DNA from: Bartonella birtlesii IBS 325
Lineage (GTDB): Bacteria > Pseudomonadota > Alphaproteobacteria > Rhizobiales > Rhizobiaceae
DNA length: 64,000 nt
Assembly (NCBI RefSeq): GCF_000273375.1
Contig: NZ_CM001557.1
Span: forward strand, 753,625-817,624
Direction: 5' to 3'
Shown: piece after piece, positions 13,096 through 64,000 of the stretch
How positions within the stretch are numbered: the stretch's first letter is position 1
Layout of the letters: each line of letters begins with the position of its first letter
Translations under genes and position numbers: made by a program
Notes under the pieces: model-generated
The model's input: only the letters and a program-made list of their open reading frames with translations
What the model was told of the DNA's origin: nothing
Databases searched by the model: none

Positions 13096-13333
13096 ATTTT
13101 TTATCAATGATTCCACTTTGAAGCTCTTATGCGTACAGTTCGATAATACGAAGGCAAAGATTAACACCCTAATCTAATATAAAAGGATTTTTTCTCAATC
13201 AAATTATTTTCTCAAAAGAGGACAATTTTCTTTAAAATAGCCAAAAATCTCTTAGTTTTTTTTACCTGCACAATATTGCTCTAAAATTGCAGATACTTCA
13301 CTGAAAAACAATAAAAATATTTATACAGCAACA

Positions 13334-13430
13334 TAGGAGGTTGGAAAATGACCCGTACAAAAACCCGTTGGGGCTGCTTCTTTCCAGACCTGACCCAGTT
13401 GACAAGCAGTTCGTCCACTACCAACCTCCC
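13334..13430 (-). ncRNA. ffs: Signal recognition particle RNA (4.5S, small bacterial type)
   Basis: On the minus strand the sequence contains the SRP domain IV core GGTCAGGTCTGGAAAGAAGC, with the Ffh-binding asymmetric loop and a GGAA tetraloop. The ends pair: GGGAGGTTGG at the 5' end (13430) with CCAACCTCCT at the 3' end (13336), as expected for the closing helix of a roughly 97-nt RNA. The position just upstream of dnaX is the usual one in Rhizobiales. Exact ends are inferred from the pairing. Confidence 0.93.
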
Positions 13431-62143: not shown

Positions 62144-63301
62144 GTGAGGGCGATTCATCGGTTATCAGCATCATTCGTAAAGTCGTCTCCACAAGGTAAA
62201 TATTGTGACGGGGCAGGGCTATGGTTGAATGTTCGAAAAGACAATACACGCTCTTGGTTTTTTCGCTATACGCACCACAATAAGCGCCGTGAAATGGGAC
62301 TTGGTCCTGTTGCAAAACTCTCTTTAAAAGAAGCGCGCGAACTTGCTAGACATTATAGTGATATTCTCAAAGAAGGCAATGATCCTATTGTCTTTCGCGA
62401 ACAGACTATTTTCAAACAGCAAAGCAATATCTTCCAAGAAATTGCAAAAGCGGCTTTTGAAAGCAAAAAAGCAGAGTTGAAAAATGAAGGCAAAAACGGC
62501 CGCTGGTTTTCTCCACTAGAGTTGCACGTTATTCCACACATAGGTAATTTATCTATAGAAAAATTAACAGCCAATATCATTCGCAATGTTCTCGCACCCC
62601 TTTGGCATGAAAAAGCAGATACAGCGCGAAAAGCACTTAACCGTATCAATATTTGCTTGAAATATGCTGCGGCTCTTGGTTTAGATGTTGATTTACAGGC
62701 TTGTATGAAAGCACGCGCTCTTTTAGGAAAACCACGTGCGACATCAACAAATATTCCTGCTATGCCATGGCAAGAAGTGCCGGTTTTTTATCAAAACTTA
62801 AAGGATGATATCCTTTCAAATTTAGCACTGAAGTTACTCATTTTGACGGGAGCACGGTCATATCCATTGCGCTATTTGCGCCTTGAACAAATTGACAAAA
62901 ATATATGGACGATACCAAAAGAAAACATGAAAGGTATTGTAGGGAAAGTTTCAGACTTTCGCGTGCCATTAAGTCGTGAAGCTTTGAAAGTGATTGAAAA
63001 ATCTCTCCCTTTTGAGAAAAAAGGTTTTCTCTTTTCAGGTCTTAAAGGCAACCCCATTTCTGATGCTACCATGGCAAAGTATATGACAGTTTGTGGTTTG
63101 ACTTATCGTCCCCATGGTTTTCGTTCAAGCTTACGGGATTGGATAGCAGAGACAACGTCAACACCATTTGAGATTGCCGAAACTGTTCTTGCACATACAG
63201 TTGGGAGTTCAGTGACGAAAGCTTATATGCGGACAGATTTTTTAGAGCAACGCCGTATCCTCTTAGAACAATGGGCGTCTTTTATATCAGGAAAGGCTTG
63301 A
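62144..63301 (+). CDS. int: Tyrosine-type phage/island integrase
   Basis: The 385-residue recombinase has the DUF4102-like N-terminal domain (GKYCDGAGLWLNVRKD, SWFFRYTHHNKRREMGLG), a core-binding helical region and the catalytic domain. The first catalytic Arg is in TGARSYPLRYL, the HxxR in PHGFRSSLRDW, the second His in VLAHTVGSSVTKAY and the Tyr in KAYMRTDFLEQRR. A TAA stop lies directly before the GTG start, so no longer protein is possible. It marks the left end of a prophage or integrative island. Confidence 0.93.
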   Translation: MRAIHRLSASFVKSSPQGKYCDGAGLWLNVRKDNTRSWFFRYTHHNKRREMGLGPVAKLSLKEARELARHYSDILKEGNDPIVFREQTIFKQQSNIFQEIAKAAFESKKAELKNEGKNGRWFSPLELHVIPHIGNLSIEKLTANIIRNVLAPLWHEKADTARKALNRINICLKYAAALGLDVDLQACMKARALLGKPRATSTNIPAMPWQEVPVFYQNLKDDILSNLALKLLILTGARSYPLRYLRLEQIDKNIWTIPKENMKGIVGKVSDFRVPLSREALKVIEKSLPFEKKGFLFSGLKGNPISDATMAKYMTVCGLTYRPHGFRSSLRDWIAETTSTPFEIAETVLAHTVGSSVTKAYMRTDFLEQRRILLEQWASFISGKA

Positions 63302-63338
63302 CATTATTTCTGTAATGTGTATTTTCGAATCAGGTGCC

Positions 63339-63361
63339 TCAAAAACACCTTGAATCGATAG
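63339..63361 (+). promoter_or_regulatory. Second copy of the antisense target, just after int
   Basis: TCAAAAAC (63339-63346) and TCGATAG (63355-63361) are the same two blocks found at the ant ribosome-binding site. They are complementary to GTTTTTGA and CTATCGA in the C4-like RNA. A duplicated control site or a relic of an earlier ant leader. Confidence 0.55.
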
Positions 63362-63443
63362 CGGATAGATTACCGAAACAATCTTTTCTCCGCACATTAA
63401 AGGCTTTGACTCATTGTATGTTACACGCATATAATGACTTTGT

Positions 63444-63538
63444 CGGGTGTAGTTACGCTATACAATACTCTTTATGGGGAAAGCGTAACGACGGACTATC
63501 GACCGTGTTTTTGAGCGCCCGGCACTCTTATGGAGTGT
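63444..63538 (+). ncRNA. C4-type antisense RNA upstream of the antirepressor
   Basis: Three stems can be drawn: CGGGTG (63444) with CGCCCG (63516), GTTACGCT (63452-63459) with AGCGTAAC (63482-63489), and GCACTC with GAGTGT at 63522-63538. The region between the second stem and the closing CGCCCG strand holds CTATCGA (63496-63502) and GTTTTTGA (63507-63514). These are exact complements of TCGATAG (63556-63562) and TCAAAAAC (63542-63549), the block that covers the ribosome-binding site of the next gene. This is the layout of phage P1/P22 C4 RNAs (Rfam C4), which silence ant translation. Ends are approximate. Confidence 0.7.
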
Positions 63539-63571
63539 CAATCAAAAACCTCTAATCGATAGGAGTTCATT

Positions 63572-64000
63572 ATGAACATTCTTATAAAAATATCAGAACA
63601 AGTCATTGATCAGCAAACTGTTAAAACTGTTAATGCGCGTGAATTGCATACGTTTTTGGCAATAGGAAAACGTTTTGCTACTTGGATTACGAACCGCATT
63701 AATCAGTATGAATTTGAAGAGGGAAAAGACTATATTTTAACGCTTCCCAAAATTGGGAAACGTAAAAATGTTATCAGCAAAGAATATCACCTCACCTTAG
63801 ACATGGCGAAAGAACTTTCCATGGTTGAACGCAATGAGAAAGGTAGGCAAGCACGCCGTTACTTTATTGAGTGTGAAAAGAAACTAAGAAACCAATCTAC
63901 TGATTATGAAGATAAACGTTTTGACTTACCAAGTTATTGGGAAGGTATGAACGCTGGTGAAAAAGTTTTGTATCTTCTGGGTCCAATTCATGTTCGCCTT
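63572..64000 (+). CDS. AntA/AntB-family phage antirepressor (partial, runs off window)
   Basis: The first 143 codons are present. The AntA/AntB domain is seen in VNARELHTFLAIGKRFATWITNRI, EFEEGKDYILTLPK, KEYHLTLDMAKELSMVERNEKGRQARRYFIECEKKL. It acts by binding the prophage repressor and promoting induction. AGGAG lies 7 bases upstream of the ATG, inside the antisense target block, so translation can be shut off by the C4-like RNA. It continues beyond 64000. Confidence 0.9.
   Translation, partial: MNILIKISEQVIDQQTVKTVNARELHTFLAIGKRFATWITNRINQYEFEEGKDYILTLPKIGKRKNVISKEYHLTLDMAKELSMVERNEKGRQARRYFIECEKKLRNQSTDYEDKRFDLPSYWEGMNAGEKVLYLLGPIHVRL

Follow-up and report, generated by a model that had tools for sequence, protein, structure and literature searches.

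The C4 RNA of phage P1 is a stable antisense RNA of about 77 nt, which is processed by RNase P and acts in trans. The record for P1 holds two pairs of target sites: a1/b1 (marked putative), which lies upstream of C4, and a2/b2, which lies at the ribosome-binding site (RBS) of icd. A scan of this record with cmscan gave C4, c4-a1b1 and a weak match to isrK (35.1 bits on the leader, cut-off 50); sRNA-Xcc1 (RF02221) gave no match to it. Both c4 antisense RNA and c4-a1b1 are listed in the accessible part of PMC2864571. In the accessible part of PMC4825925, the leader RNA IsrK of orf45–anrP in Gifsy-1 has complementarity to the RNA downstream of it, ends in a terminator and belongs to the control of an antirepressor; in Salmonella, the short RNA acts in trans to activate translation of the antirepressor. 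The same source describes the CI RNA of P4, an antisense RNA that lies between two complementary sites (seqA and seqC) and controls the termination of transcription ahead of replication genes. In Acinetobacter, C4-like RNAs arise by read-through and processing of a leader transcript, according to the accessible part of PMC5320573.

The published reports on sRNA-Xcc1 span 2010 to 2025. As far as their accessible parts go, they tie this RNA to virulence regulators or to predicted targets, or merely cite or list it (PMC2996969, PMC12444791, PMC12189769, PMC11701678, PMC8876359, PMC6557892, PMC7694677, PMC8336823, PMC11932112); one gives 212 predicted targets in Xylella in addition to predicted targets in plants. 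In Xanthomonas integron cassettes, sRNA-Xcc1 has been found upstream of symE, and a divergent mechanism has been suggested (PMC12444791, accessible part). In the openly accessible literature on sRNA-Xcc1 that was covered, no link to C4-type pairing was found, and no pairing with the RBS of the next gene is named there.

The window analysed here is a stretch of 64,000 nucleotides from Bartonella birtlesii IBS 325, whose genome is a single contig of 1.83 Mb. At the 3′ end of the window, on the forward strand, lies int (62144–63301), an open reading frame for a tyrosine integrase (Pfam Arm-DNA-bind_3, Phage_int_M and Phage_integrase). The 3′ end of int overlaps the promoter-like site P1 (63298–63325; TTGACA-16-TATTTT, 10/12 in a consensus scan), which would act just 5′ of target 1 (t1, a1/b1-like, 63333–63361). 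Here, TCAAAAAC, the target of block B, occupies the loop of a GGTG..CACC hairpin in the leader fold (63339–63346) and is followed by TCGATAG, the target of block A (63355–63361). Next come a leader hairpin, GCGGA..UCCGC (63361–63393), with no run of T behind it, in the place where relatives have a terminator-like hairpin, and the promoter-like site P2 (63406–63435; TTGACT-18-TATAAT, 11/12). The predicted antisense RNA (63441–63532) starts about 6 nt after the −10 box of P2. Hairpin 2 of this RNA has block A, CTATCGA (63496–63502), in its loop; block B, GTGTTTTTGAG (63505–63515, with the core GTTTTTGA at 63507–63514), is mostly single-stranded and lies 5′ of the closure of the outer stem. A short hairpin (GGCACTC/GAGTGTC, 63521–63539, seen in the fold of 63320–63600) separates the RNA from target 2 (t2, a2/b2-like, 63542–63562), in which TCAAAAAC (63542–63549) and TCGATAG (63556–63562) recur, the latter overlapping the AGGAG Shine–Dalgarno sequence (63561–63565). 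The ATG at 63572 begins antA, which runs past the end of the window at 64000, encodes 175 amino acids in the genome and is an antirepressor gene (Pfam AntA 5.6e-26; PHROG anti-repressor Ant). Just past the window are genes for an endolysin, tail proteins, a tape measure protein, a head-closure protein and a tail sheath (PHROGs), which places the int–antA locus at the border of a tailed prophage or of its remnant. DNA searches with the locus gave seven records in a plasmid collection, all from Bartonella, and no match in a phage collection.

A first-pass annotation of this DNA had proposed a two-block antisense RNA with two matching targets, and this is borne out by the sequence, by sister copies and by the fold of the RNA (63380–63535; z −3.1 against shuffles). 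A repeat search recovered an 11-nt perfect complement between 63338–63348 and 63505–63515, and an 8-nt one between 63507–63514 and 63542–63549. The annotation was also right that CTATCGA and the second block match the RBS of the antirepressor gene (t2 runs into both AGGAG and the ATG) and that the same blocks recur after int, the recurring stretch (63339–63361) starting 37 nt behind the end of the int reading frame. It had regarded a duplicated target as unusual; however, P1 has a1/b1 upstream in addition to a2/b2 at the RBS, and Rfam holds a c4-a1b1 family, so that two targets belong to the established C4 design. The annotation placed one of the targets outside the leader of the antirepressor gene; the promoter-like site P1 could instead put t1 inside a long antA leader.

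The annotation further proposed C4-like control of a prophage antirepressor. The mechanism is well supported by topology, block order, AntA, the prophage neighbours and co-variation, but the RNA is not C4 by the Rfam model: in 63250–63700, the C4 model (RF01695) was unlisted to E = 10, as were c4-a1b1 (RF03163) and isrK (RF01394), and the nearest model was that of sRNA-Xcc1 (RF02221). Under stricter filters, RF01695 was above its cut-off in none of 61 genomes of the genus, with one weak hit (E 0.08). The match of the window RNA to RF02221 has 43.9 bits (E 1.3e-6 in 451 nt), below the gathering cut-off of 53, and this is the reason for its absence from a gathering-threshold search of the window. 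One of its sister copies in this genome scores 56.0 bits, above the cut-off; in the 61 genomes, RF02221 has matches at E 0.01 or better in 41 and above the cut-off in 32, with up to 44 matches in a single genome. The window RNA and sRNA-Xcc1 have the core ATACAATAC...GGGGAA in common, and the window RNA is best filed, on sequence, as a divergent relative of sRNA-Xcc1 rather than as a member. Both the cmscan alignment and the fold have a three-way junction with one block in a loop and the second before the closing stem. Over 64 copies, the junction stems have 96.7% of cells paired (95.0% in shuffles; 29–57% when the register is slid) and a covariation score of 0.184, compared with 0.146 in shuffles.

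The locus thus shares with P1 C4 a predicted three-way junction, the order of the blocks, an antirepressor gene downstream, a loop block that pairs beside the Shine–Dalgarno sequence with the other block pairing 5′ of it, and, as in c4-a1b1, a second pair of targets upstream. It differs in its hairpins and conserved letters, in the promoter-like site between the upstream target and the RNA, and in the leader hairpin, which has no T-run. In layout, order of blocks and topology the locus follows C4, and by sequence the RNA belongs to another family. The resemblance to IsrK, as described in PMC4825925, lies in a leader RNA with complementarity to the RNA downstream and in the control of an antirepressor; unlike the window leader with its T-less hairpin, IsrK ends in a terminator and is an activator in trans. 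The isrK model had no match to E 0.5 in 20 sRNA-Xcc1 loci. With the P4 CI RNA, the window RNA has in common the position between two complementary sites.

To follow the pairing through the genus, 159 sequences (stretches of genomes, plasmids and IMG/VR contigs) were scanned with a regular expression. Among the matches listed, there were 119 non-identical copies, which were merged only when identical over about 300 nt, and the genomes with many copies were sampled in part. These copies are diverse, having 34 different A blocks and 78 different A+B addresses. With fixed anchors, all seven positions of block A pair (G–U allowed) with t1 in 105 of 111 copies and with t2 in 102 of 109; the t1 anchor is absent in eight copies and the t2 anchor in 10, several through differing anchor letters. 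Free of anchors, the full complement of block A is found in the copy's own leader in 112 of 119 cases (10.8% for foreign partners) and in the 75 nt that follow the RNA in 106 of 119 (9.7% for foreign partners). Counted over unique combinations, again including G–U, 93.8% of block A positions pair with t1 (37 combinations) and 93.4% with t2 (39). In 1000 shuffles, the corresponding values average 63.9% and 64.8% and go no higher than 72.2% and 72.9%. Block B is fully paired with t1 in 79 of the 119 copies, has one mismatch in 27 and more in five, and lacks an anchor in eight.

An alignment of 64 copies, selected for full pairing of block A and not for block B, was used for covariation. Changes on both sides occur in 216 cells for t1 and 217 for t2, compared with averages of 66 and 68 in shuffles, none of 500 coming as high. 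Covariation scores reach 0.531 for t1 and 0.562 for t2 (0.15 in shuffles), and sliding the register lowers the pairing from 96.5% (t1) and 96.8% (t2) to 34–52%. In block B, 94.3% of cells pair with t1 and 95.6% with t2. Two of five measures in these 64 copies, the pairs with change on both sides and the number of pair types, are at or below the level of shuffles for both targets. Block A, t1 and t2 change jointly among copies and foreign partners rarely fit, which implies that the pairing of block A with t1 and t2 is under selection, as judged from these alignments.

Given that blocks and targets co-vary across some hundred related copies, the roughly 90-nt RNA (63441–63532), with its two address blocks, likely silences the translation of the neighbouring antA in the style of P1 C4; of all the readings considered here, this is the one held with good confidence. 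During lysogeny, P2 would yield the RNA independently. The RNA would bind t2, with the loop block A on the Shine–Dalgarno side and block B 5′ of it, and the translation of antA would be blocked. Transcripts from the promoter-like site P1 would carry t1, which could pair with the same blocks, either titrating the RNA or occupying its own copy, and so favour expression of the antirepressor. IsrK provides a precedent, in that a t1-like leader RNA can turn on an antirepressor in trans (PMC4825925). Genomes of the genus have several such locks and, since the locks of one genome carry their own addresses, each RNA would act mainly on the gene next to it.

The genome of the window itself has 15 copies, on which the RF02221 matches and the regular expression agree, with 15 different addresses. 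Twelve of these have an RBS target; in the matrix of all 15, the best partner is the copy's own t2 in 11 of the 12, and in the other (L046) it is the second best. In the three copies lacking an RBS target, the own t2 ranks 10, 11 and 15; these antisense copies may be decoys or relics. They are G000:C1:821249–821461 and 828135–828331 (in L002 and L004) and the copy near 2076 in L042; the copy in L002 mismatches its own t1, and those in L004 and L042 still match theirs. Drawing addresses from the pool gives 15 of 15 different ones in 16% of trials as well (P 0.16, not significant), and for this reason no selection for distinctness of addresses within the genome is claimed. Over the genus, 13 of 119 copies lack a full t2, and 11 have no RBS target by eye (eight keep t1, three do not). 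In L037, with the block CTTGGTA, the RBS target is present but off by one. In L418, the antisense RNA fits its own t1 and t2 bears the address of another copy (TACCAAG); this copy likely arose by recombination and would be controlled by a foreign lock.

Across the phylum, 58 of 398 sampled genomes, the one analysed here among them, have RF02221 matches. Scans for the core pattern, with hits in at least 120 stretches of named genomes and at least 120 of viral contigs, gave 207 distinct loci outside the genus among the matches listed. Excluding 67 loci without a t1 anchor, a leader target with a run of at least seven complementary bases is present in 124 of 140 anchored loci among the matches listed (97 different 8-mers; 4.3% for mismatched partners). 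After exclusion of nine of these 140 with a leader run below six, an RBS target with a run of at least eight is present in 75 of 131 (9.4% for mismatched partners), again among the matches listed. The t2 run is below six in 12 of the 131 listed loci, 10 of them from genome_contigs; a cut of six is generous, because 60% of mismatched partners reach it. Seven titled loci with a t2 run below six come from Rhodanobacter, Xanthomonas, Lysobacter, Luteimonas and boreopolis records. In L111, L120, L133, L151, L157, L180 and L203 (mostly Xanthomonas and relatives), the leader target is kept and no RBS target is seen (in L111, as judged by eye); control in these seven loci may be by termination only.

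The 601-base region has three promoter-like sites compared with 1.2 ± 1.2 in shuffles, which is weak on its own, so the argument for P2 comes from its sister copies. Directly before the RNA, 73 of the 119 genus copies have a P2-type site of at least 9/12, compared with 2.2% of their shuffles; the other 46 score below 9/12. Thus read, the Bartonella RNA likely has its own promoter, P2; P1 and P2 were both recognised by their match to the consensus. An imperfect palindrome, CATTGTATG..CATATAATG, is formed by the spacer and −10 box of P2 (63412–63435) and could be an operator or a hairpin in RNA. Outside the genus, a P2-type site precedes the RNA in none of the 207 loci among the matches listed, the RNA start being set by pattern in 145 and at a fixed place in 62. 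By analogy with Acinetobacter, the RNA outside the genus would come from read-through of the leader transcript followed by processing.

The proteins encoded downstream were compared with domain models in two scans outside the genus, one of 111 hand-picked proteins and one of the other 73, and a single protein can have more than one domain. Among the matches listed, these 184 proteins include Bro-N (35), Rha (15), P22_AR_C (13), KilA-N (12), AntA (9), ORF6N (9), P22_AR_N (6) and SymE (4), with fewer known families in the remaining 73 than in the first 111. Antirepressor types are frequent downstream of sRNA-Xcc1 but not general, because many of the proteins match nothing. Within the genus, 96 rows (the window gene counted twice) include AntA (60), ANT (33), a YdcK-like solenoid (20) and Rha (13). 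Genes for YdcK-like β-solenoid repeats (L042, L044, L045, L048 and other Bartonella loci) are under the same predicted lock as the antirepressors.

A survey of symE genes covered 197 genomes from the family to which G456 belongs (probably Xanthomonadaceae); 14 of them have SymE-like loci, 19 in total (L433–L451). In five (L433, L434, L435, L436 and L438), sRNA-Xcc1 is directly 5′ of symE on the same strand, and in L444 it precedes another start codon. Eight of the 19 have matches to the antitoxin SymR (RF01809), below its cut-off, L448 has C4 and a weak isrK match, and four have none; at E 0.01, 15 of 19 loci have one kind of RNA and never two. SymR is found at symE genes, as is sRNA-Xcc1 in some loci, but the SymR matches lie on the strand opposite symE, whereas sRNA-Xcc1 is upstream on the same strand. 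One type of toxin, SymE, thus occurs with three antisense designs: SymR-like, sRNA-Xcc1 and C4. At each of the five adjacent loci, the leader and the symE RBS both hold a match to block A by eye; these loci count as three independent cases, because L433 and L434 share addresses, as do L435 and L436. Of the other four SymE loci, L148 and L156 have an RBS target and L219 and L111 have none, i.e., the target is present in seven of nine symE-adjacent sRNA-Xcc1 loci. It is predicted that sRNA-Xcc1 serves there as a SymE antitoxin, which is a possible answer to how symE genes with an upstream sRNA-Xcc1 stay silent.

What is new is that sRNA-Xcc1, linked in print to virulence, has a predicted leader target and often precedes antirepressor genes or symE, and so the family gains a simple local target. 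On balance, it seems probable that sRNA-Xcc1 (RF02221) represents a class of C4-type antisense locks in proteobacteria, in which each copy would have a two-block address, silence the next gene (antirepressors, Rha, BRO, KilA-N or the SymE toxin) and be countered by a leader with the same target. In that case it would replace SymR as the antitoxin at SymE and, in Bartonella, form a promoter-driven, many-copy, separately addressed set. The smaller share of known families among the remaining 73 downstream proteins and the additional symE locus that lacks an RBS target (L111) weigh slightly against this view. Seen in this way, the family supplies a natural library of antisense switches, each with its own address; one genus has about a hundred cognate pairs.

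It is possible, although improbable, that the RNA acts chiefly in the manner of the P4 CI RNA, to which it was compared through PMC4825925 (accessible part): the RNA would pair with t1 on the nascent leader and end transcription early, the translational block at t2 being secondary. At least 10 loci keep t1 and lack t2, and a G/C-rich arm followed by TTTT is present in 138 of the 207 non-genus leaders among the matches listed; in the genus, however, it is present in one of 119, and t2 is kept in 106 of 119. A literal TTTTT in equal windows gives 22 of 119 genus leaders and 163 or 145 of the 207 listed others; by a looser measure (at least five T in seven bases), both sets are T-rich (83 of 119, and 181 of 207 among the matches listed). 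An arrangement purely in cis is unlikely. Here, t1 and the antisense stretch would be the closing helix of a single structured leader of about 200 nt from the promoter-like site P1, an attenuator or riboswitch-like element, and the fold of 63320–63600 does pair t1 with the antisense (z −4.07). When 63 copies were modelled as long transcripts (from t1) and short ones (from the RNA start), block A paired in the long ones with t1 (mean probability 0.77) and not with t2 (0.08), and in the short ones with t2 (0.51). Yet t2 covaries as strongly as t1, 73 of 119 copies have P2 where the RNA starts, block A sits in a hairpin loop, and C4 of P1, with the same layout, acts in trans. A role of t1 as a switch that releases the RBS in cis is weakly supported by these models, because the RBS is hardly more open in long transcripts (0.43) than in short ones (0.41; 38 of 63; p 0.05). 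With translational silencing of antA as the preferred reading, t1 might free the RBS, titrate the RNA or be a site of termination as in P4.

That the repeats merely reflect similarity among paralogues and have no function is hardly credible: the copies are duplicated and alike, yet the letters of address and target differ much between them and change in step. It is also very improbable that the RNA belongs to the Bartonella regulatory transcripts (Brts) and controls badA. The Brts come from the same genus, are multicopy, belong to a prophage-rich setting and adjoin genes for DNA-binding proteins (PMC5387305). However, they precede trp genes of the XRE type, whereas the gene downstream in the window is AntA; on pBGR3, the sequence 5′ of the HTH gene is a different one on the other strand, and an RF02221-type RNA precedes WP_012755128. 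The identification of the window RNA as a Brt was dropped after comparison with the pBGR3 region and within the own genome. A different multicopy region lies 5′ of the plasmid HTH gene in L047 (858–1400, reverse strand) and has 16 matches in the own genome, including those near 146–149, 222–233 and 299–305 kb; regions of this type are probably the published Brt RNAs. Elsewhere in the window, at 13333–13429 on the reverse strand, there is a gene for the bacterial small SRP RNA.
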